From NCBI GenBank assembly GCA_020627825.1, contig JAHDGD010000028.1, positions 1 through 37,568 on the forward strand: a stretch of DNA of 37,568 nt. The letters run 5' to 3'. Position numbers and translations under genes: made by a program. Under the pieces are notes generated by a model. It did not search any database, was not told the origin of the DNA, and saw only the letters and a list, made by a program, of their open reading frames with translations. Positions 5,696 to 37,112 of the stretch are shown here, piece after piece (the first letter of the stretch is position 1; every line of letters starts with the position of its first letter). Source of the DNA: Saprospiraceae bacterium. GTDB taxonomy: Bacteria > Bacteroidota > Bacteroidia > Chitinophagales > Saprospiraceae.

Positions 5696-5719
5696 TTTTT
5701 TGGGCTCGAGCCCAAAAAA
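5696..5719. repeat. Palindrome family member 1 (GGGCTCGAGCCC core)
   Basis: A perfect 24-bp palindrome: six T, then GGGCTCGAGCCC (5702-5713), then six A. It lies between two convergent genes, 3 bp from the phosphatase stop. It has no trailing T-tract on either strand, so it is not a canonical intrinsic terminator. It is identical over 28 bp (5693-5720) to the copy at 29633-29660. Confidence 0.85.
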
Positions 5720-7269: not shown

Positions 7270-7917
7270 CTAGACGGTTTGGTATTTATTTGCGTAGATG
7301 TGGTGTTCTTTCAATGCTGAAAATGTATAGCCTCTTTTTGAAAAGAACTGAAGTACTTTTGGCAAAACGACTTGAAGTTTTTCGAATGCTTTTAGACTAT
7401 CATGGAAAACTACTATACTTCCATTTTTAGTGGAACGAATGACTTTATTGTAGCATTCACTTGCGGAAATTTTGGGGTCGAAATCACCACTTAAAACATC
7501 CCACATAATGATGTCATAATGTCGAGAAAGAAACTGTCCTTGCTTTGGTTTTATCCTTCCATAAGGCGGTCTAAAAAAAGGGGAATCTACGACTGTAGCG
7601 CATTTACGAATATTGTGAAAATACGATCTGTTTTCTGTTGACCACCCATTCAAATGATTAAATGTATGATTTCCTATAGTGTGCCCTTCAGTGGACAGTT
7701 GATTAAAGATATCAGGATTTTTTGTCACGTTTTCACCTACACAAAAGAAGCTTGCTTTGGCATTGTATTCCTTCAGTCTTTCAAGAACCCATGGTGTTAC
7801 TTCAGGGATTGGTCCATCATCAAATGTGAGAAATATTTCTTTTCGTGCATCTTGAACTTTCCATGTATAATTTGGAAAGAGATTCTGAATAAAATTCGGT
7901 GTTTTAGTTAAGTACAT
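7270..7917 (-). CDS. Polysaccharide deacetylase (NodB-homology, CE4)
   Basis: A 215-aa metal-dependent deacetylase with all five NodB motifs: TFDDGP (31-36; D33 and D34), HTFNH (84-88), the RPPYG arginine loop (116-120), WDVLSGDFD (139-147) and VVFHDS (169-174; H172). There is no signal peptide or N-terminal membrane segment, so it is predicted cytoplasmic unless exported by another route. The family removes N-acetyl groups from chitin-oligosaccharides, peptidoglycan or other glycans; the substrate is not evident. It sits 37 bp upstream of the YkgJ-like gene on the same strand and is probably the first gene of that operon. Confidence 0.93.
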   Translation of the reverse strand: MYLTKTPNFIQNLFPNYTWKVQDARKEIFLTFDDGPIPEVTPWVLERLKEYNAKASFFCVGENVTKNPDIFNQLSTEGHTIGNHTFNHLNGWSTENRSYFHNIRKCATVVDSPFFRPPYGRIKPKQGQFLSRHYDIIMWDVLSGDFDPKISASECYNKVIRSTKNGSIVVFHDSLKAFEKLQVVLPKVLQFFSKRGYTFSALKEHHIYANKYQTV

Positions 7918-8141
7918 AGTTTATTAACGGGCGATTTTTCAACTTTAGTCTAAGCGTTAGTAATGTAACGTACGAAAATCAGATTCGTTGCTTAAGAAGA
8001 CAAATTACATTATAAAAAAACATAATATGAAGGCGCCTCTAGATTACTTCGTAATTGCCGTGTATATTAGCTTTGTGATTTTTTTTAAAAAAACTTTAAA
8101 AAATGTGGAACGAAATCTAGGGTTGATTACACTAATAAGGG

Positions 8142-8840
8142 ATGAAGAAAATTGAAGTAGAACAGACCTTAGCCATTTCATCATGGATAGATGAAGAGCG
8201 CCCACGTGAAAAATTAGCAATGTGGGGAAAGAATTCGATGTCTTTAACTGAATTGTTAGCCATTATAATAGGATCAGGTACTAAACAGATGAATGCAATA
8301 GAGTTAGCGCGTATGATTTTAAAAGAGCATGAAGCACATGAATTACCATATTTGAATATATCAGAATTATGCCTTTTCAATGGAATTGGCAGTGCAAAAG
8401 CTATAAGTATAATTGCTGCATTAGAATTTGGTAAAAGATGTGCTCGAGAAACACGCCAAAATAGAAGTCAGATAAAGACCAGTGAAGACGTGTATCAGTT
8501 AATGCGCGACAAATATGAGAACCTAGATCATGAAGAATTTTGGGTGGTATTTGTAAATGCGGCATCTAAGGTGACGCAAATTGAAATGATTTCAAAAGGA
8601 GGTATGACCAAAACAATTGTCGATCCTGTAATTATCTTAAAGAAGTCCATACAATTTATGGCACGAGGAATAATTTTAACTCATAATCATCCTTCAGGAA
8701 ACTTGAAAGTTTCAAGCGCAGATCGAAATCTAACAAATAAAATGAAAGAGTTATGTTCGCTCCTTGATATTAATTTGGTTGATCATGTTGTGTTTACAGA
8801 TGGGGGGTATACAAGTTTTGTAGATGAAGGATATTTGTAA
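8142..8840 (+). CDS. radC: RadC-family JAB/MPN domain protein
   Basis: A 232-aa member of the RadC (UPF0758) family. The N-terminal part has a helix-hairpin-helix-like segment (LCLFNGIGSAKAISIIAALEFGKR, split at about 77-99). The C-terminal JAB/MPN metalloprotease-like domain carries LTHNHPSG at 179-186 with the H181, H183 and D194 metal ligands (HxHx10D). Despite the name, a role in DNA repair has not held up, and the biochemical activity is uncertain. The gene stands alone in a 224-bp divergent region; TAGCTTTG at 8068-8075 is a possible -7 promoter element, though I see no good -33 box. There is no Shine-Dalgarno site before ATG 8142. Confidence 0.93.
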   Translation: MKKIEVEQTLAISSWIDEERPREKLAMWGKNSMSLTELLAIIIGSGTKQMNAIELARMILKEHEAHELPYLNISELCLFNGIGSAKAISIIAALEFGKRCARETRQNRSQIKTSEDVYQLMRDKYENLDHEEFWVVFVNAASKVTQIEMISKGGMTKTIVDPVIILKKSIQFMARGIILTHNHPSGNLKVSSADRNLTNKMKELCSLLDINLVDHVVFTDGGYTSFVDEGYL

Positions 8841-8987: not shown

Positions 8988-11477
8988 ATGAAAATCATTT
9001 TAGTGTTAATCGGATTTATTGGTTTTAGTTTAGCAGCACAAGAATTGCCTTCTCCATCTCAATTTTTAGGGGAAGAGTATGGTAAACAATTTACGGCTCA
9101 TCATCGTTTGGTAGATTATTTTCAAGAAATGTCAAAAGATCCCAGGGTAAGCTTACAGCAATATGGAACAACATATGAAGGGAGACCACTTTACATGGCC
9201 ATTGTTACATCAGAGGCCAATCATGAAAATTTAGAAGCTATTCGAGAGAAAAATTTAGCTTTAGCTCAGATGGGTTCGTCAAATAGGAGTGATGATGAAG
9301 CATTGCCTATTGTATGGTTAAGTTACAGTGTGCATGGAAATGAAGCGGGAGGATCTGAAAGTTCTATGAATGTAATCTATGAATTATTGACAAATCCTGA
9401 ACAATCAAATGTACTAGATGATGTAGTAGTTATTATAGATCCATCTTTAAATCCAGATGGTTATTCAAGGTATACGCATTGGTTACGCGGATCAAGTGGT
9501 AAAGCATTGCATCCTGAGCATACCGATATAGAACATATGGAACCATGGCCAGGAGGAAGAGTGAATCATTACTTATTTGATTTAAATAGAGATTGGGCAT
9601 GGCAGACGCAAAAGGAAACAAGACAACGAATTGTGCAATATAATCGATGGATGCCACATGTTCATGCGGATTTACATGAAATGGGCTATGACAGTCATTA
9701 CTATTTTGCACCTGCTGCAGAGCCTTATCATAAAGCAATAACTGATTATCAACGTGAATTGCAGACCAAGATAGGCAAGTCTCATGCGGCAATATTTGAT
9801 CAGAATAGTTGGCTGTATTTTACAAGAGAAGTATTCGATTTGTTATACCCATCTTATGGAGATACTTATCCAACATTCAATGGATCAGTTGGGATGACGT
9901 ATGAACAAGCGGGGCACGGTATGGCTGGTAGGGCAATTACGATGAGTAATAAAAAACAACTTACTTTACAAGATCGAATCGATCATCATACGGCAACTAG
10001 TTTATCAACCATAAGGACAGCTGTAATAGAAAGTTCATCCATTCTTTCAAATTTCAAAGCATATTTTGAACAATCAGCAAGTCCAGTAGGCAAGCCTTAT
10101 AAAGGATATATAGTGAAACAGGGGGCTTCTCTATCTTCTTTCAAGGAGTTGTTAGCAAATAATGGAATTCAGTATGGGATTATTGATGTTAATAAAAAGG
10201 CTAATGGATACAGTTATTTTCAAGGTGATGATATGTCTTTTGAAGTTCAGAAGGGTGATGTTTTTATTCCTACAGACCAAGCAAAATCGGTTTTGTTAGA
10301 AGTATTGATGGAGGAAGAACCTGTTTTAGCAGATAGTGTAACATACGATATTACTTCATGGAGTTTACCATTTGCTTATGGGTTGGAATCGTATGGTGTA
10401 AAATCCATATACTCAAATCAGGCGGACGATCATCAAAATAAGGTAATATCGGATGTAGAAAATGATGCTTATGCTATTTATGTGAAATGGTCGAGTTCAT
10501 TAGAATCCAAATCTCTAACAGCTTCCTTATTAAAGGAAGATTTAACGATCAAGAGTGTTCGTTCCACTATTCATTTAGATGGCATTACTTTGGAACCAGG
10601 AGATGTCGTAATTATAAAAGGAGATCAACTGTCTTTGTCGCATTATGATCTAGCAATAAGACTTCTTCAAAAGACAAAAGTTGAATGTGGAAGAATTGAA
10701 TCAGGGTATTCGTTAAATGGTAAAGATTTAGGAGGAAGTGCATTGCAAAAAATTCATTCGCCTAAAGTGTTGACATTTTTTGGTGAAGGAGTAAATGCTA
10801 ATGCTTATGGTCAAGTGTGGTATTATTTTGAACAGATTTTGGATTATCCGATCAGCAGAGTTGATATACAGCAATTGTCTTCAATAGATTTATCTATTTT
10901 TAATACCATTATACTCCCAGATGGGTATTATAGTTTGAGTGAGCATCAGAGAAAAGAACTTGGTAAGTGGATTAGAGAAGGAGGGAAATTAATCAGTGTA
11001 GGAGGAGCTAATCGTAATCTTAAAATAGATGAGCAATTTGCAATATCAGAGATAGAGCAAGAAAATAATAAGGAAGTAGAGGAAAAAGCTGACAAAGAAC
11101 GATATAAAAAAAGGCAGTATGAAGGAGCCGAAAGGAGGTCTATTGCTGGAAGTATTCCTGGTGCAATAATAAAAACAGAAATTGATCCTACACATCCATT
11201 GTGCTATGGGTTAGAATCCTATTACACTTTGAAGAATTCAAGAACAAAGTATCCATTGATGGGAAAAGGAGTATATAATCCTGTGCGAATTCCAAGAGAT
11301 TATATCTCATATGGTTTTATCGGATCAGAAATACAGGAAGGTTTTGAAGAAAATGCTGTATTTTCAGTTCAAAGAATGGGTAGAGGTCAGGTTGTTTATA
11401 TGTTGGATAATCCATTGTTTAGATCTTTTTGGAAGAATGGAGAAGTTGTATTTGCCAATGCATTGTTTCAATTGTAG
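8988..11477 (+). CDS. Secreted M14-family zinc metallopeptidase
   Basis: An 829-aa exported peptidase. A signal peptide occupies residues 1-18 (IGFSLAAQ). The M14 domain spans about 30-350: zinc ligands H116 and E119 (VHGNEAGG), substrate-binding NPDG (155-158) and DLNRDW (198-203), a third ligand candidate in VHADLHEMG (H226 or H230), and general base E306 in MTYEQAGHG. The C-terminal third (about 580-680) has a class-I-glutamine-amidotransferase-like fold pattern (TIILPDGYYSL, KWIREGGKLISVGG), as is usual in large Bacteroidota M14 proteins. I see no type IX C-terminal sorting domain, so it is predicted periplasmic. The gene is monocistronic as far as can be seen. Confidence 0.92.
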   Translation: MKIILVLIGFIGFSLAAQELPSPSQFLGEEYGKQFTAHHRLVDYFQEMSKDPRVSLQQYGTTYEGRPLYMAIVTSEANHENLEAIREKNLALAQMGSSNRSDDEALPIVWLSYSVHGNEAGGSESSMNVIYELLTNPEQSNVLDDVVVIIDPSLNPDGYSRYTHWLRGSSGKALHPEHTDIEHMEPWPGGRVNHYLFDLNRDWAWQTQKETRQRIVQYNRWMPHVHADLHEMGYDSHYYFAPAAEPYHKAITDYQRELQTKIGKSHAAIFDQNSWLYFTREVFDLLYPSYGDTYPTFNGSVGMTYEQAGHGMAGRAITMSNKKQLTLQDRIDHHTATSLSTIRTAVIESSSILSNFKAYFEQSASPVGKPYKGYIVKQGASLSSFKELLANNGIQYGIIDVNKKANGYSYFQGDDMSFEVQKGDVFIPTDQAKSVLLEVLMEEEPVLADSVTYDITSWSLPFAYGLESYGVKSIYSNQADDHQNKVISDVENDAYAIYVKWSSSLESKSLTASLLKEDLTIKSVRSTIHLDGITLEPGDVVIIKGDQLSLSHYDLAIRLLQKTKVECGRIESGYSLNGKDLGGSALQKIHSPKVLTFFGEGVNANAYGQVWYYFEQILDYPISRVDIQQLSSIDLSIFNTIILPDGYYSLSEHQRKELGKWIREGGKLISVGGANRNLKIDEQFAISEIEQENNKEVEEKADKERYKKRQYEGAERRSIAGSIPGAIIKTEIDPTHPLCYGLESYYTLKNSRTKYPLMGKGVYNPVRIPRDYISYGFIGSEIQEGFEENAVFSVQRMGRGQVVYMLDNPLFRSFWKNGEVVFANALFQL

Positions 11478-11567: not shown

Positions 11568-12200
11568 ATGAAAACATACATAAGGCATGATGCAAATTTG
11601 CGTTTATTAAAGCGCAATTCCAAGATGGAATCAGACACGGTTTATATTTTACAGAGTGAATCAGCAGGGAGTAGTCAATATTTTGAAAAAAATAAAGAGT
11701 TAAAATATGCGAGACAAATGTTTAGAAAACATTTTGAAGGTTGCATAGATATTTATCATGAATTGTATACATCTAGAGGACTTATGCTGGTAGTGAAGGT
11801 TAGAGGTAAAAATGAAATAATTGATAGTTGGGGTAGAAAGGGGAAGCTAGAGAAGGAGGTTTCAGCTATATTGAGTGAGTTAATGCGTTATGCTATAAGT
11901 GCTATTGCTAAGTTTCGGAATAGAGTTCATGGGAGAAAAGGGGCAGTGGTCAGAGAGAATTTCAGACTGTATGAATTCAAGGGAGAGGAGGAGGTTAAAG
12001 CATTTATAGGTCGTTTGAGGAAGAAGTTGGTGGGATTGTATGGACAAGTGGGGAAATATTGTGGAGGGGTAAAGAGTGAAGTGGGGTATTGGTATGCGGA
12101 GGTTTGTAAAATACCTAGATATGTCCTACGTAATTTCTTGAAAAGCACCGAAATTATCCTAAAACCCCCAATCCAACATAATAACTTAAATCAAATTTGA
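11568..12200 (+). CDS. RAYT-like (Y1 transposase-related) protein, HUH motif lost
   Basis: A 210-aa protein that follows the layout of REP-associated tyrosine transposases / IS200-like Y1 domains. It has a beta-alpha-beta start (VYILQSESAGSSQYFEKNKE at 25-44, RQMFRKHF), an IYHELYTSRGLMLVVKV strand (62-78) where the family has a xMPNHxHLLV strand, a helix with a candidate nucleophile tyrosine (LMRYAISAIAKFRN, Y108), then GRKGAVVRENFRLYEF (122-137), matching the family's RxGxLFxxRFK segment, and an IGRLRKKLVGL helix. The HUH pair itself is replaced by R70-G-L72, so metal-dependent nicking looks lost. This may be a domesticated or decaying relative. Composition also differs from its neighbours: 11.82-12.11 kb is G/purine-rich on the coding strand. 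No terminal repeats are seen flanking it. The family assignment is my reading from pattern, not a search. Confidence 0.55.
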   Translation: MKTYIRHDANLRLLKRNSKMESDTVYILQSESAGSSQYFEKNKELKYARQMFRKHFEGCIDIYHELYTSRGLMLVVKVRGKNEIIDSWGRKGKLEKEVSAILSELMRYAISAIAKFRNRVHGRKGAVVRENFRLYEFKGEEEVKAFIGRLRKKLVGLYGQVGKYCGGVKSEVGYWYAEVCKIPRYVLRNFLKSTEIILKPPIQHNNLNQI

Positions 12201-12277
12201 TTTATAAGTCAATAATTGAAATAATTTCCAATTTCTAGTGTATTAATTACTGAAATGGCTGCTGCCATTATATTTTT

Positions 12278-24120: not shown

Positions 24121-24258
24121 CTTTTTACTTCACTTATTTCTTACGTTAAGGTGCTCTTAATGTATGCCATCTGCGTAACACGACATTTAAATAATTCGTA
24201 TATTTCTAAACGCACTTCTTTCAAATAAGTGAATCCTTATTTAAAGAATAATTTAAAT
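24121..24258. other. Intergenic stretch before the nested repeat
   Basis: First part of the 504-bp gap between nqrF and the lipoprotein gene. It is AT-rich, with no ORF, RNA gene or clear promoter that I can support. Confidence 0.5.
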
Positions 24259-24525
24259 AACGTGAATAATGGATAAAGAATAAAATCAGTTGACAGAGAT
24301 GCATACATATACAAGGCTGATTTTATTTCTCCTAGCAGCGCTAAGAGAAATAAAACAGAACGAAGTAGATGGATGTAGAAATGTCAATAGCTCATAAAAC
24401 CATTTAAAGGGTCATCTTTTTCCTAAAAATTCCTCGAATTAGCTTTGGCTAGTCCTTCGGAATTTATAGTCAAACCTAACCCATTAAAAGGTTTCTGATA
24501 AAATTCCTTATCCATTATTCACGTT
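24259..24525. repeat. 267-bp element of nested inverted repeats (MITE-like or structured RNA)
   Basis: The outer arms AACGTGAATAATGGATAA (24259-24276) and TTATCCATTATTCACGTT (24508-24525) are perfect 18-bp inverted repeats, with weaker pairing continuing inward to 24287/24497. Inside are a hairpin 24321-24355 (TTTTATTTCTC/GAGAAATAAAA plus TAGC/GCTA), a second arm pair at about 24397-24412 and 24479-24494 (14 of 16 pairing), and a hairpin 24427-24465 (AAATTCC/GGAATTT, TAGC/GCTA). The tetranucleotide AAAT directly flanks both ends (24255-24258, 24526-24529), as a short target duplication might. No transposase is encoded within. It could be a miniature transposable element or a folded RNA in the leader of the lipoprotein gene. 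Confidence 0.7.
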
Positions 24526-24536
24526 AAATAACTAAA

Positions 24537-25784: not shown

Positions 25785-25805
25785 TTTTGGGCTTTAAGCC
25801 CAAAA
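25785..25805. repeat. Palindrome family member 4 (GGGCTTTAAGCCC core)
   Basis: TTTT-GGGCTT-T-AAGCCC-AAAA: 10-bp arms around a single central T. It lies between the convergent glycosylase and TspO-like genes. No T-tract follows the stem on either strand. Confidence 0.8.
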
Positions 25806-27531: not shown

Positions 27532-27550
27532 TTTGGGCTTTAAGCCCAAA
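27532..27550. repeat. Palindrome family member 5 (GGGCTTTAAGCCC core)
   Basis: TTT-GGGCTT-T-AAGCCC-AAA, 9-bp arms, the same core as the copy at 25785. Its right A-run (27548-27555) is also the T-tract of the neighbouring minus-strand terminator. Confidence 0.8.
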
Positions 27551-29635: not shown

Positions 29636-29659
29636 TTTTTTGGGCTCGAGCCCAAAAAA
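29636..29659. repeat. Palindrome family member 6 (GGGCTCGAGCCC core)
   Basis: A perfect 24-bp palindrome with core GGGCTCGAGCCC at 29642-29653. The 28 bp 29633-29660 are identical to 5693-5720, 24 kb away. It lies between two co-directional minus-strand genes. Confidence 0.85.
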
Positions 29660-31633: not shown

Positions 31634-33550
31634 TTATTGTTGTTTTATACTTAGTGTATTGTCCATGTATTCTTTGATAGAACGTATGGTATTATTCCAT
31701 TCTTCGAATTGTGAAGGTTCGATAAATATTGACTTCGACTCGAGAATATAATGTAATTGAATGGTTCTGCCATCCATTGAGTATGCAGCTTTAAATGACA
31801 ATAAATCATTATCTATATCCAAAGGTTCAGGTAATGAATTTATTGACTCTGTATCATTAATGGTATAGCGTGTTGTAACATCAATATGCTGAAGATGCGC
31901 AATCTCATATGGAAAAATCCGATCGTCTTCCATTTCATACAAGAGACTATGTTCTTTCATAAACATATTGATGAAATGTTCATCACCGACTTCAATAACG
32001 TAATTATCTAGATTAAAATCATAATGTAAAATGTATGGAAGATCTCTATTGTCAATATTTTCTTCTGTATAATCAGACAGTATGAATTTATTATTACCGA
32101 GAAGAACTCTTCTTTTTACATCATTAAATTTAGATGTTTTGTTTAGTGAACTCATTGTTGCTAACTGACGTGTCCTAGATAATCCATGGAATTCAAATGA
32201 ACCTGTTCCCTTAATCAAGCCGTTCTCTTCAGTGAAATCAACTTCAATTTTTCGTTTATTATCAATGGCATCTACAATGGGTACGGTAACAATTTTGAAC
32301 TCTTTGGGCGAAAGCCCTACTAAAGCTTCCTTTCCTTGAATGAAGCTGCTAGGATATGGGTAAGCTGTCCATTGATCTGTACCATCCAAGAATATATAAC
32401 TATCATCTTTTACATAGCATGCAATCATATGGTTATCTACCGCAGGTGTTGGTACTTCTTCATAAGTATAAGGTATATCCCGTGTCCCTATCCATGTTAG
32501 TTTTACATTGTCTATTCCAATGCTTTGACACAACGCCTGTGTGATACTTGACATATCTTTACAATCTCCGAATTTCCTTTCGCATACAAGATTTGCCTCT
32601 CTGGGAATAAAGCCCTCATATCCGTTCTCATATGCTATATACTTGATGTTATCCTTTACCCAGTAATATATTGCTTTTACTTTTTCTTCTTCAGTTTCAT
32701 GTGGAGCTGCAATTGTTTCTGCAATTGTTTGTAAATCTTTATTAATGTCTTTATTTAAATCTTTAACAAATGTTTGATAATATGCATACAACTTAGGTAC
32801 ATCCCCTAGGAATATTGGTTTTTCATCTAGTTCAGCATCGGTAATGAAGAGTGCAACATGAGGTTCTACATATAACATACCTGGACTATTGGGTTCCCAC
32901 TTGTATGGCGTTGAATTCTTTTTAACCCATTGATAAAGCGTTTTTTTCCCCTTCTTCGTTTTTTGAAATTCGATATCACCCGAATCATTAATTACTTTAT
33001 AACCTAGTTCTACTGAATTATCTACTTCAACTTCCAATTTAAGCTCTTCTGCTGCATATTGTCTTTTAAAAACGAATCGATGCAAAAGATTGGGATCCGT
33101 AAAAGTGGTTTCATATTGTAAGACTTTTCGAACCCCAGGTTCTAAACCAGAGTATGTGACTTCAATCTTCTTTACGTCATCAAAAAACACAGAACCACTG
33201 TTGTTGCTTGATTCGTTAAAGTTTTTCATCTTCACTTTCTTATTATCTTTTGTAATGATATACGCATTGTAATCCATAACAGGTGATAATTCAGAAGAGT
33301 AAAATTGATCTTTTTGATCTCTGACTCCTAGCTTATTTAAGACTAAAGATTCTTTATGCCTTTCTTGCGTTATAAGTAATCCATTTTTTGCTTTTTTTAT
33401 AACGTATTTCTCCACATCGGAAATCACAACTTCTGGCTGACCTTTATAGGCAGCTTTATAAGCTTCGAAACTTTTCGTTTCTTGAGCAATTGCCGGTACA
33501 ATTACTGTAAATAAAATAAATAGGATCAGGCTATTCCTCAGACGGAACAC
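31634..33550 (-). CDS. Exported DUF3857/transglutaminase-core protein with intact triad
   Basis: An exported protein of the same DUF3857/transglutaminase architecture as its downstream neighbour. The transglutaminase core has the Cys-His-Asp triad: FGDCKDMSSITQALC, DNHMIACYV and IFLDGTD. Start choice: GTG 33550 gives 638 aa with a compact signal peptide (MFRLRNSLILFILFTVIVP, then AIAQ) and a 20-bp overlap with the upstream gene. ATG 33592 gives a longer, less typical N-terminus and a 62-bp overlap; the frame is open to 33628. Such proteins in Bacteroidota are periplasmic or surface proteins of unknown substrate, with proteolytic or cross-linking activity possible. The palindromic 15-mer at 32303-32317 encodes GLSPK here. 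Confidence 0.85.
   Translation of the reverse strand: MFRLRNSLILFILFTVIVPAIAQETKSFEAYKAAYKGQPEVVISDVEKYVIKKAKNGLLITQERHKESLVLNKLGVRDQKDQFYSSELSPVMDYNAYIITKDNKKVKMKNFNESSNNSGSVFFDDVKKIEVTYSGLEPGVRKVLQYETTFTDPNLLHRFVFKRQYAAEELKLEVEVDNSVELGYKVINDSGDIEFQKTKKGKKTLYQWVKKNSTPYKWEPNSPGMLYVEPHVALFITDAELDEKPIFLGDVPKLYAYYQTFVKDLNKDINKDLQTIAETIAAPHETEEEKVKAIYYWVKDNIKYIAYENGYEGFIPREANLVCERKFGDCKDMSSITQALCQSIGIDNVKLTWIGTRDIPYTYEEVPTPAVDNHMIACYVKDDSYIFLDGTDQWTAYPYPSSFIQGKEALVGLSPKEFKIVTVPIVDAIDNKRKIEVDFTEENGLIKGTGSFEFHGLSRTRQLATMSSLNKTSKFNDVKRRVLLGNNKFILSDYTEENIDNRDLPYILHYDFNLDNYVIEVGDEHFINMFMKEHSLLYEMEDDRIFPYEIAHLQHIDVTTRYTINDTESINSLPEPLDIDNDLLSFKAAYSMDGRTIQLHYILESKSIFIEPSQFEEWNNTIRSIKEYMDNTLSIKQQ
32306..32317. 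repeat. Palindrome family member 7, inside the transglutaminase gene
   Basis: GGGC-GAAA-GCCC on the plus strand with TTT on the left only. In the gene's direction it is GGG CTT TCG CCC AAA (GLSPK), identical over 15 nt to the copy in the YkgJ-like gene. Confidence 0.65.
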
Positions 33551-36500
33551 ATTTGCCGTATTCAAAATACATAGTTTCTTTGAGTTCTCCATTTTCATAA
33601 ATTTTATAAGCTCCGTGATATCTATCATCTTTATATCCTATTCGAAGCTGTATGACTCCATTTTCATCATAGTAGGCTATATCATCTTGTAAGTTATGTT
33701 GATTATACGTTTGAACCAAGTACTTTTCTCCATTAGCATGATACTTAACATACGGACCATCTAGATAGCCTTTTTTTCTATTTTTTTCTAGGATGAGGAC
33801 ACCTTCTCTTGAATATATTTGAAGTTTTCCGTCAATGTATAACTTATCAAACGAAATATTCATTGCAGGTTGTCCATCTTCATATGTAATGTTAACTGTT
33901 TTTTTACCTTTTGGCAAAGCAGAACTATTGGACATGGTTCCTTCGGCTGTTCTCACTTGATAGGAATCTATAAGATCTGCTTTCATGTGTAAGATCAACA
34001 AAGTATCTCCAGAAGGGCTGAAAAATATTTTGGGACCTTCCTGTTGATCATTTTTATTCATAGCAGTTCTATAAACACTTCCATCAGGGTAATAAACTTT
34101 AGATTTCCCAGTATATTGATCTTTTTGGTAAAAGCCTTCTGCTGTTTTATTCCCCATATCATCATACCATATAGATTTCCCCTCACTCTCGCCGTACACA
34201 TAATTCATTTCAAGCTTAACTGCACCACTCGGTGCAAAACGTTTTAATACACCATGCTTTTTCCCATTCACATACGCACAAGTTGATTCTACCTTGTCTT
34301 CTCTAAATCGATAGGTTGTAAGCCCTTCCAACATGCCATTTTTTAATGTTCTGTCTATCGATTCTAGACCATACATCGAAGTTTTGAAAAGACCATCTTT
34401 ATAATAAAAATCAATAGAATCTATTTTCTTTCCTTTATAAAAATGTAAGGACTCTGATAATTCTCCATACTCATATCCAACACCTGTATTGAATGTGTTT
34501 TTTTCGTATAATTTTCCACTTGCATCATATAATTCACTAGCTACCATTTTTCCATCTGAATAAAATCTAGTTTCTGAGATTTCTCCTGTTGTTCTGTAAA
34601 AGTTTAATGGACCATTTAATTTGCCATCAGCATAATAACATGTATACGCAAGGTGACCGCTTTCATAAGATTTGAATATACCGTTTAACGTATCGTTTTT
34701 GTAATTCGCTATAGAAGAAATATCCCCATTATAATCATATGCTATGTCCTCACCTGTTTGCTCACCATTTGCATATTCTTCTACACTTAATATTTGGCCA
34801 TTCCTATAATAGTAAGTAGATTTTCCATCCAATGTTAACTTTTTATAAGAGCGCTCACTTCTTTTGTTTCCATCTGCGTCATAATAAGTAATAGGACTTT
34901 TCTTTAATTTTTTGGGCTTTTCGCCCAAATGGCTTGTGATACTTTGAAGCGCATCATTTTTGAAAGTAAACGTGTACAATAATTTATCATCTTCATAAGA
35001 TTCAAGGCTCTTCAACTCATCTCCATCAAATCGATAAATAGAGTGTTCTCCATTTTCATTACTGTATGTAATTTTTTTATCCCCATTTTCCATTTCCCCT
35101 TTCTCTGTTACTTCTCCTTTCGAATTATACAACGTATAAGGAAATACATATTCATCATCTTTCATTTCATATGAAAACTGTAAATTGCCGTCTGGTTTAT
35201 ATACATGTACAGGACCAGTAATCTTACCGTTTTTGTAGGTGTATTCATATGATTTTTCTCCATTTAAACCATAATAGGTTACGATTCCATCTCTTTCTTC
35301 ATTTTCATTATAAAGTATTGTAGCCCTTTTCTGACCATTTGCATAGTTACAGTTCACCTCTCCAATCAATTTTCCATCTATATATGGCTCTTTGCAATTC
35401 ACTCCACCTAGAGCGTATATATAGGAATAGTCACCATCAAGCTTACCGTCTTTAAAATTGATGACCCATGTTTCTTCTCCTTTTGAATTGATTCCAACAT
35501 TTCTTCCATTTTTCTCATCATTGATATACATTGCTTTTTCATCGATTACCCCTTCTATATCATTTAGAATAGCTTCCCCTTCTAGTTTATCATCAACGTA
35601 TTGATAAGTGCCGCGTTTCCTTCCATATTCATCCATATATATGAACGTACCCTGCTTCTTTCCATCAATTACCTCTCCTTTAATAAAAGGGTCTCCCTCA
35701 TTATATTCTATCGTTATCATTTTACTTTCGCCATCTACAACCATCGGTGTGACATAAAATAGATCTTGAAATTCATCTTCAATAAATTCCTCTTGAAAAT
35801 CGAGTAGGTCATTCATGTTTTTCTGAACAGTTTTACCTAGTTTTCCTTCCTCAAACGATACCAATGTATAATAGGTGAACAATTCTGTTAAGTCCTGTTT
35901 TCCTATTTCTTTTAAAAATGGAATGTAATGTGTTTCAAAAAAACCATCTTGAATTTCATGCGATTCTGCATATTCGATTACTGCTTGTAGATATCGCGTA
36001 TAGTTGTAATCAACTGAACTTTTAAGTTTGAATTTTTTATTCAAAGGAAGATTATTCCTGAGAATTTCGATTAATTCTGAAAAATCATCTCCTTCTTTCG
36101 AAAATACAATGCCTGCGAGATCTTTGTAATTTGAAGAAAAATCCTTGTCCAACAAGGATACTGCAGTGGTTGCTAAGTTATCTCCTGGACTAAGCGCTAA
36201 ATACCCCACTATACTTAAGAAACCCGGAATGAGTTCTCCTTTGTCCAACGCTATTGCACCCAGTAAATAATGGGCACGTGATAAACCAGGATTTAAGATG
36301 ATAGTTTGTTTGAAATCATTTACTGCGGCTTGTGTTTTACCCGCTTCGTAATTTGATACACCACTATAAAAATAAAGTAAACTATAATTTGGGAAATTTG
36401 CTTTTCCTTCATCCAAAACTGCTAGAGCTTCATCATATTTTTCTAATGATGAATAAGCTTTTGATAAATTATAATAAAGCGGCGGATAATCATTAAACGA

Positions 36501-36776
36501 TCCTTTTTCAAGCAGAGGAAGTAGTAATTCTATAATTTCTTCATAACGTTCTGCACTTTCAAGAAATTCAACTTTCGAAGTGATACCTACTAAATAGGCA
36601 GGATCTAGAAAATGAATTTTATCAAGTTCTTCAATGGCTTTATTGATTTGATTTCTTTCTTGAAATGAATAGGCACTTGCTGCAATTTCTTGAAGGTCGT
36701 AAATATAATTTTCTTGAGAAAAACATATACATGTAAAACAAGTCAAAAGTAGGGTAGTAAGGTGTTTACTTTTCAT
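33531..36776 (-). CDS. Exported TPR + MORN_2 (YwqK-like) repeat protein, 1081 aa
   Basis: Signal peptide at 1-21 (MKSKHLTTLLLTCFTCICF then SQ). Residues about 22-210 hold TPR-like helical repeats (YNLSKAYSSLEKYDEALAVL, LSRAHYLLGAIALDKGEL). From about 370 to the C-terminus is a long array of roughly 22-24-residue MORN_2 repeats of the type YYxDGxLxGPxxFY (for example CYYADGKLNGPLNFY, EYANGEQTGEDIAYDYNG). I estimate two to three dozen repeats, many degenerate. MORN_2/YwqK repeats are annotated as antitoxin-like in some genomes, but that label has little support for exported arrays like this one; an extended surface or periplasmic scaffold is more likely. It heads a three-gene cassette with the two DUF3857 proteins, the first overlap suggesting translational coupling. 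Confidence 0.9.
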   Translation of the reverse strand: MKSKHLTTLLLTCFTCICFSQENYIYDLQEIAASAYSFQERNQINKAIEELDKIHFLDPAYLVGITSKVEFLESAERYEEIIELLLPLLEKGSFNDYPPLYYNLSKAYSSLEKYDEALAVLDEGKANFPNYSLLYFYSGVSNYEAGKTQAAVNDFKQTIILNPGLSRAHYLLGAIALDKGELIPGFLSIVGYLALSPGDNLATTAVSLLDKDFSSNYKDLAGIVFSKEGDDFSELIEILRNNLPLNKKFKLKSSVDYNYTRYLQAVIEYAESHEIQDGFFETHYIPFLKEIGKQDLTELFTYYTLVSFEEGKLGKTVQKNMNDLLDFQEEFIEDEFQDLFYVTPMVVDGESKMITIEYNEGDPFIKGEVIDGKKQGTFIYMDEYGRKRGTYQYVDDKLEGEAILNDIEGVIDEKAMYINDEKNGRNVGINSKGEETWVINFKDGKLDGDYSYIYALGGVNCKEPYIDGKLIGEVNCNYANGQKRATILYNENEERDGIVTYYGLNGEKSYEYTYKNGKITGPVHVYKPDGNLQFSYEMKDDEYVFPYTLYNSKGEVTEKGEMENGDKKITYSNENGEHSIYRFDGDELKSLESYEDDKLLYTFTFKNDALQSITSHLGEKPKKLKKSPITYYDADGNKRSERSYKKLTLDGKSTYYYRNGQILSVEEYANGEQTGEDIAYDYNGDISSIANYKNDTLNGIFKSYESGHLAYTCYYADGKLNGPLNFYRTTGEISETRFYSDGKMVASELYDASGKLYEKNTFNTGVGYEYGELSESLHFYKGKKIDSIDFYYKDGLFKTSMYGLESIDRTLKNGMLEGLTTYRFREDKVESTCAYVNGKKHGVLKRFAPSGAVKLEMNYVYGESEGKSIWYDDMGNKTAEGFYQKDQYTGKSKVYYPDGSVYRTAMNKNDQQEGPKIFFSPSGDTLLILHMKADLIDSYQVRTAEGTMSNSSALPKGKKTVNITYEDGQPAMNISFDKLYIDGKLQIYSREGVLILEKNRKKGYLDGPYVKYHANGEKYLVQTYNQHNLQDDIAYYDENGVIQLRIGYKDDRYHGAYKIYENGELKETMYFEYGKCVPSEE
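34911..34929. repeat. Palindrome family member 8, inside the MORN_2 gene
   Basis: TTTGGGC-TTTTC-GCCCAAA, 7-bp arms. In the gene's direction it reads as LGEKPKK, in a linker between MORN repeats (SHLGEKPKKLKKSP) that breaks the local repeat pattern. Confidence 0.7.
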
Positions 36777-36869: not shown

Positions 36870-36892
36870 TTTTTGGGGTTTAACCCCAAAAA
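36870..36892. repeat. Palindrome family member 9 (GGGGTTTAACCCC core)
   Basis: TTTTT-GGGGTT-T-AACCCC-AAAAA: 11-bp arms around one T. The C:G pair next to the loop in the common core is a G:C-to-G/T-shifted variant, but the T-before/A-after layout is the same. Confidence 0.7.
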
Positions 36893-37095
36893 GGCATTAA
36901 GTAGTTATCCTGAGTTCTGGGATTAATTGCGAAAGCGAAAATCAAATAAAACACTTTATTCCATACGTTTTGATGGAAATGTGGCTCGCTACATTGAAAT
37001 AAAACAACGTAAAAAAAAGTATAACTAACTTGTTTATAAATTCAATATTGTATCAACTATTGAAGAGCTGTAAATCTTAAACTTTTTTATTTTCT

Positions 37096-37112
37096 TTATT
37101 CACGTTATTTAA
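37096..37112. repeat. Third copy of the 24.26-kb element arm
   Basis: TTATTCACGTTATTTAA is the exact reverse complement of 24253-24269, the left outer arm of the nested-repeat element together with its flank. No partner arm is visible within the next few hundred bases. Confidence 0.5.

Follow-up and report, generated by a model that had tools for sequence, protein, structure and literature searches.

Genes for RAYT-derived proteins that are predicted to be catalytically dead share their control sequences with DNA-uptake genes in a Bacteroidota bacterium and in some relatives, which suggests that a transposase has been recruited into natural transformation. One member of this family is encoded in the window, the 37,568-nt stretch of Saprospiraceae DNA analysed here, as a 210-aa ORF on the + strand at positions 11568-12200. 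The reading that we consider probable is that the family consists of lineage-specific, non-catalytic RAYT descendants that are co-regulated with the natural-transformation machinery and bind ssDNA during transformation. Co-regulation of the family with the com genes is well supported by shared promoter sequences; promoter activity in competence, ssDNA binding and an effect of that binding are what we infer.

RAYTs are transposases for single-stranded DNA hairpins. The window protein was compared with them by profile and by predicted structure, as the first-pass annotation of this DNA had suggested. The window protein matched no Pfam or NCBIfam family at E<=10, and hhalign aligned it, as a single sequence, with a profile of 13 canonical RAYTs at a probability of 94.2% (E=1.1e-7). 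The family profile aligned with the same RAYT profile at 98.6% (E=8.5e-16), and the family of a third genus (genome G378) aligned with canonical RAYTs at E=1.9e-16. In other genomes, single weak matches of the family profile were canonical RAYTs with NHFH and YIHxNP. Pfam searches with 16 paralogs returned seven families, each matched by one member only, and a PDB sequence search returned two matches, both at chance level. The model of the window protein (mean pLDDT 69) had TnpA-REP 4er8 as its best Foldseek match (E 1.4e-3, probability 1.00), and VIA-align superposed it on IS608 TnpA (2a6o/2a6m) with a Z of 10.4 over 97-98 residues at an rmsd of 2.4 A, and on 4er8 with a Z of 7.8 over 135 residues. 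For the model of a typical paralog (pLDDT 75), 4er8 ranked first both in Foldseek (E 1.4e-2) and structurally (Z 9.8 over 125 residues at 3.0 A). The Y1/RAYT order of strands and helices that had been read from the letters is present in the predicted structure, whose fold is not unrelated to that of Y1 transposases. Given the middling confidence of the structure models, the argument for ancestry leans more on sequence homology. As judged from profiles and models, the window protein descends from RAYT/TnpA-REP stock, though by its defining features it is no RAYT transposase.

Catalytic residues were counted in an alignment of 103 proteins, in which the canonical RAYT set comprised all other fetched matches and was not picked by motif. 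Canonical RAYTs had both HUH histidines in 33 of 33 rows (HFH kept) and the tyrosine in all 32 that reach its column. In the family, the first histidine was present in 0 of 68 rows (53 G, 10 Q, 5 E), the second in 4 of 69, and the catalytic tyrosine in 0 of 67. Among 30 positions that canonical RAYTs conserve, those of the catalytic set have been lost from the family, whereas the N, R and G of NxxxxRxG are retained at 100%. Most G378 copies read NQFQ, NEFQ or NQWE, so the histidines were replaced within an otherwise recognisable motif. In the window protein the eroded HUH site had been recognised correctly but misplaced: the histidine columns are G71 and M73, not R70-G-L72. Y108, the earlier candidate for the catalytic tyrosine, sits in an earlier helix and not in the place of the nucleophile, and the tyrosine column (the Y of YIHxNP) holds R149. 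The GRKG...ENF segment is present as described and aligns with the retained NxxxxRxG block. The family therefore shares fold and homology with RAYT transposases and lacks their HUH site (NHxH), the tyrosine in YIHxNP and the single-copy state. In the tree, from which four rows were omitted (two cut copies from the own genome, the L050 fragment and the truncated canonical L164), canonical RAYTs and the G378 family each make up one side of a branch with support, although the tree has long branches that meet; HUH may have been lost once or repeatedly.

The window gene had been taken for a single-copy RAYT, which does not hold. In its own assembly (G000; 297 contigs, 96% complete, 4.46 Mb) the window protein matched 19 further sites at E<=2e-6 (23-34% identity), and at most of these the open frame has 210-241 codons. 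Paralogs were read from fetched stretches, and a profile built from 16 of them gave 33 matches in G000, contig-end fragments included; 31 promoter-bearing copies are found there in addition to the window copy. The window copy is an outlier, since its paralogs are far closer to one another than to it, and its row is the longest branch in the tree (2.99). Ten of 40 genomes, counting the own one, had matches to the profile at E<=0.001. There were 25 matches in G002, of the same genus, with 22 genes and one fragment reported among them; three in G003, with one intact gene and one broken copy (L043/L048) that was excluded from the counts; and one in G001. Nine family genes were found in G007, of another genus, and 17 in G378, which was identified among 396 genomes of the order, 45 of which matched at E<=1e-6, with at most seven candidates scored per genome.

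The tree shows lineage-specific expansions of the family. Pairwise dN/dS ranged from 0.06 to 0.44 over all lineages (0.13-0.34 for 7 pairs in G000, 0.13-0.18 for 2 pairs in G002, 0.06-0.09 for 3 unsaturated pairs in G007 and 0.09-0.44 for 25 pairs in G378), which indicates that the copies are maintained; these figures cover paralog pairs, and the window copy, having no close relative, stands outside them. By these sequence measures, the family proteins are dead as enzymes and maintained as proteins. The earlier suggestion of a divergent or domesticated enzyme is supported, alongside RAYT ancestry.

Sixteen young copies in G000, located at contig ends, are scattered as units of about 1.2 kb; their similarity extends over about 350 bp on the upstream side and 100-150 bp on the downstream side and then fades. 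These copies (L016, L023-L025, L028, L063-L068, L074-L077 and L113) form one subfamily, nearly all at contig ends, in which coding starts are near-identical and upstream DNA has diverged, through either gene conversion or recent spread. At the 3' ends of G000 family genes, ACGTAGTATCAAA near the stop codon looks conserved as DNA beyond the need of the protein.

The G000 family copies carry a sigma-type promoter, GGAACG...TTACACTAATA, and the sequence upstream of the G000 paralogs reads AAAAAAGTGGAACGAAATnnnGGGTTCATTACACTAATAAG. A sigma-54 reading of this promoter was judged by eye and dropped. A pattern taken from the family copies alone gave 40 matches in G000 against 4 in the control. Six of the 40 were other places, about as many as the control predicts, and single-copy genes were also matched. 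By Pfam and NCBIfam naming, the single-copy genes with the family promoter encode ComEC, ComM/YifB, a DUF2851 protein and the RadC of the window. Since the pattern came from family copies only, the com genes were reached via the family promoter and were not chosen for it. Model R1, built from all promoter sites known by then, gave 35 matches in G000 at E<=1.2e-9, with the next at 0.53. These were the same four single-copy genes and 31 family copies, of which 16 are full length or nearly so, 11 are cut by a contig end after the gene start and four are cut before or at the start. Model R2, built from 16 family sites without any com gene, found the G000 promoters of ComEC, ComM, DUF2851 and RadC at 6e-14 to 1.4e-12; it had no match in 35 loci surrounding canonical RAYTs and a control. 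Eight family rows showed no promoter in one scan: L027, L029 and L031 are cut at contig ends, L207 (= C83), L208, L209 and L187 have the promoter by other scans, and the window copy lacks it.

A second shared element in G000 is a dyad, CATATTA-N10-TAATATG, whose centre lies about 109 bp upstream of TTACAC. Of its 14 positions, at least 11 matched at -113 to -103 in 29 of 34 G000 promoters, including those of all four single-copy genes, against a mean of 0.9 and a maximum of 4 in shuffled controls; the consensus was read from the same G000 sequences in which it was counted. The dyad was present in 15 of 15 young near-copies and in 14 of the 19 remaining promoters.

The promoter was then followed into other genomes. 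R1 gave 27 matches in G002 (22 family genes, one family fragment, SSB, DUF2851, ComEC, RadC and one contig-cut site) and four in G003 (one family gene, ComEC, SSB and DUF2851). Its four matches in G001 were SSB, ComEC and two weak ones (L126, L127); the latter, like one weak R1/R2 match in G031, look like chance. R1 had no match in G007, where nine family genes have the promoter GGGnATATTTTnnnnGTTCnnGACACTTA. The G007 pattern gave 17 matches and its reversed control none; the targets were the nine family genes, ComM, ComEC, ComF (called by TIGR00201 with a score under the cut-off), DUF2851, an ECF sigma gene, a canonical RAYT and two places that lack a clear ORF. The G378 promoter, GGTAAC...ACACTAATA, gave 23 matches against 3 for the reversed control: 18 at 16 family genes, two of which have doubled promoters, four at ComEC, ComM, RadC and RecA, and one by chance. 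The 17th G378 family gene has a variant promoter. In G378 the promoters of family genes and com genes are not quite alike (GGTAACGAAAT versus GGTAACGTTTT), and R2 found the promoter of RecA but not those of ComEC, ComM and RadC, so the link between family and com genes there rests on the G378 pattern. ComEC was a promoter target in all six genomes examined, ComM in three and ComF in one. Where the promoter differs between genera, it does so in family and com genes alike.

None of 33 canonical RAYTs had the promoter, with one further case as an exception. L228:1567-2298 in G007 is a canonical RAYT with NHFH and YIHNNP behind a variant of the G007 com-type promoter at 3 mismatches; the promoter is thus not exclusive to dead forms, and L228 may show the ancestral state. 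The same variant, also at 3 mismatches, precedes the ECF sigma gene at L227:1533-2132, which scores 44.1 bits with TIGR02937 (cut-off 42.9) and is a candidate competence sigma factor by sequence. It is the single such case, in G007, and no sigma gene was among the 35 R1 matches in G000. The two ORF-less places, L212 (= L130) and L224, lie 287 bp apart on G007 contig C58; their com-type promoters have no clear ORF behind them and may mark a decayed copy or a small RNA. DUF2851 genes (L060, L116, L121, L226) have the promoter in four genomes (G000, G002, G003 and G007), and DUF2851 is a candidate transformation gene.

The window copy, which lacks a promoter of the shared type in two scans, one of them with R2, lies on the radC strand 2.7 kb downstream of radC with one ORF between, and the radC promoter is the only R2 match in the window (Table 1). 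Between positions 7900 and 12400, one terminator-like site was found, just after the RAYT-like gene, and none between radC and it; as 1.6 sites are expected by chance, this evidence is weak. The window copy may ride on the radC promoter, or may be in the course of being lost. A 44-nt direct repeat (75%) joins 7994-8037, upstream of radC and including the dyad, with 11086-11129 in the 3' part of the preceding ORF, and may be due to chance.

Table 1 Features of the window that bear on the RAYT-derived gene, the radC promoter and the palindromes.
Positions	Strand	Feature	Evidence
8001..8029	.	Upstream dyad of the radC promoter, 13/14 matches to CATATTA/TAATATG, 15-base gap	Dyad scan
8092..8142	+	Putative competence-type radC promoter, same element as before other family copies	R1 E=4.6e-14; R2 E=5.4e-13
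8142..8840	+	radC, single-copy member of the promoter set	NF000642 above cut-off; PF04002
8988..11477	+	829-aa ORF between radC and the RAYT-like gene, M14-peptidase-like by eye	ORF reading
11568..12200	+	RAYT-derived protein, the family's most diverged copy, without HUH histidines (G71, M73) and catalytic tyrosine (R149)	Alignment, profile, fold model
12254..12269	+	T-tailed hairpin resembling a terminator, following the RAYT-like gene	Terminator scan
5699..5716	.	Terminator-like palindrome of REP-like type, between convergent genes; does not belong to the system	
25786..25804	.	Terminator-like palindrome of REP-like type, between convergent genes; does not belong to the system	
27532..27550	.	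Terminator-like palindrome of REP-like type, after a - strand gene; does not belong to the system	
29639..29656	.	Terminator-like palindrome of REP-like type, after a - strand gene; does not belong to the system	
34911..34929	.	REP-like palindrome inside ORF 33531-36776	
36872..36890	.	REP-like palindrome, intergenic	

The first-pass annotation had counted nine REP-like palindromes in the window and proposed a REP/RAYT pair. A stricter definition, which required perfect 7-bp arms with GGG or CCC in them and a loop of 3-8, gave six, five intergenic and one inside a gene. Four of the five intergenic palindromes are situated at the 3' ends of genes and have T and A tracts on their flanks, as in intrinsic terminators. 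The palindrome is a genuine repeat of the own genome: the pattern TTTGGGCN5GCCCAAA occurs at 139 places in G000 with at most 1 mismatch (reversed pattern, 0), and at 39 in G001 (2.1 Mb), 17 in G003, 7 in G002 (3.4 Mb) and 1 in G007 (5.4 Mb); it is sparse in the last two despite their expanded families of 22 and nine genes. Palindrome density thus does not follow the protein family across genomes, and the proposed co-occurrence fails for the TTTGGGC...GCCCAAA palindrome. The palindromes behave like terminators and not like a partner of the RAYT-derived family. A MITE-like candidate was also noted, with a 37-nt inverted repeat (24253-24289 and 24495-24531, 84% complementary, 205 nt apart) and a related arm at 37085-37112.

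In the reading that we favour, the family copies would be expressed during competence from the sigma-type promoter that they share, in the own genome together with the upstream dyad, with comEC, comM, ssb, recA, radC, comF and DUF2851 genes. ComEC delivers single strands, on which SSB, RecA and ComM act. In Riemerella, one study reports that transformation needs ComEC, DprA, ComF and RecA and is reduced in YifB mutants (PMC8459023). Since the RAYT scaffold is made for gripping a hairpin of single-stranded DNA, a dead version present at this stage would bind strands that are coming in or being displaced, most likely alongside SSB, RecA and ComM. Such binding could influence whether a given strand is protected, recombined or rejected. 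The versions are many and divergent and may differ in the hairpin that each reads, in sorting or in defence against transposons, or the units may spread selfishly. A more specific form of this proposal is that a recruited transposase had its chemistry removed and was multiplied into readers of ssDNA hairpins that sort incoming strands at uptake, as self or foreign, or as transposon-bearing or clean; we put it forward tentatively and think it somewhat doubtful.

The same features could serve a blockade of transposition, in which the dead proteins would occupy the hairpin ends of incoming strands in competition with active IS200/IS605/RAYT transposases and so prevent jumps during transformation; the many protein versions would then reflect the many hairpins of the elements. 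The fold and the lost chemistry suit a dominant-negative binder, and the divergent paralogs under purifying selection and the lack of any PF01797 match over its cut-off in the own genome also speak for it. This lack is not read as absence of active elements, and PF01797 is blunt here: the canonical RAYT L228 passes the cut-off by just 0.8 bits. G007, moreover, holds both an intact RAYT and the family, and we regard this explanation as unlikely. There is also little probability in the view that the gene is a selfish dispersed unit of about 1.2 kb that copies itself by transformation and recombination from its own competence promoter, with a protein that helps its own DNA and not the host. The lineage-specific expansions and the sixteen young copies with their shared flanks speak for such a unit, but the proteins lack any residues for strand transfer, constraint persists in old divergent copies, and three genomes of the same genus range from many copies to one.

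That the shared promoter marks stress and not competence, with the family acting in DNA repair, is suggested by the presence of RadC, SSB and RecA among the targets. The recurrence of ComEC in every genome examined, with ComM in three and ComF in one, points the other way, as does the part of the Riemerella work in which transformation needs ComEC and ComF and is reduced in YifB mutants (PMC8459023), and a general repair or stress regulon is accordingly improbable. Least credible of all is a REP/RAYT pair in which the protein works on the TTTGGGC...GCCCAAA palindromes: these are abundant in the own genome, but they do not track the family, they lie at gene ends like terminators, and the supposed enzyme has neither HUH nor Tyr, so that we give this reading hardly any weight.

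An open-licence literature search found no paper linking RAYTs with competence or describing the family promoter, and no description of competence control in Bacteroidota. If the favoured reading is true, a dead, maintained and expanded offshoot wired to DNA-uptake genes would show that transposases can be domesticated by a new route, and natural transformation would gain a set of new players. The promoter and dyad also offer a way to trace the regulator of competence, and more com genes, in Bacteroidota.

Among known systems, the family is like RAYT/TnpA-REP (Y1 subclasses 2.x) in homology, fold, the N-x4-R-x-G block at 100% and a length of about 210-260 aa; it differs in lacking HUH and Tyr, in its many copies per genome, in its competence-gene promoter and in that the REP-like palindrome of the window does not track it. 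The likeness to IS200/IS605 TnpA lies in the fold (Z 10.4 to 2a6o/2a6m), whereas HUH-Y chemistry and a Pfam family match are lacking. Competence regulons with a dedicated promoter include those of ComX/SigX in streptococci and CRP-S in Haemophilus. The set described here resembles them in that one promoter type is common to comEC, comM, ssb, recA, radC and comF homologs. In contrast to those regulons, the promoter is of another type, the setting is Bacteroidota, and the targets in G000, G002 and G378 are mostly transposase-derived genes.
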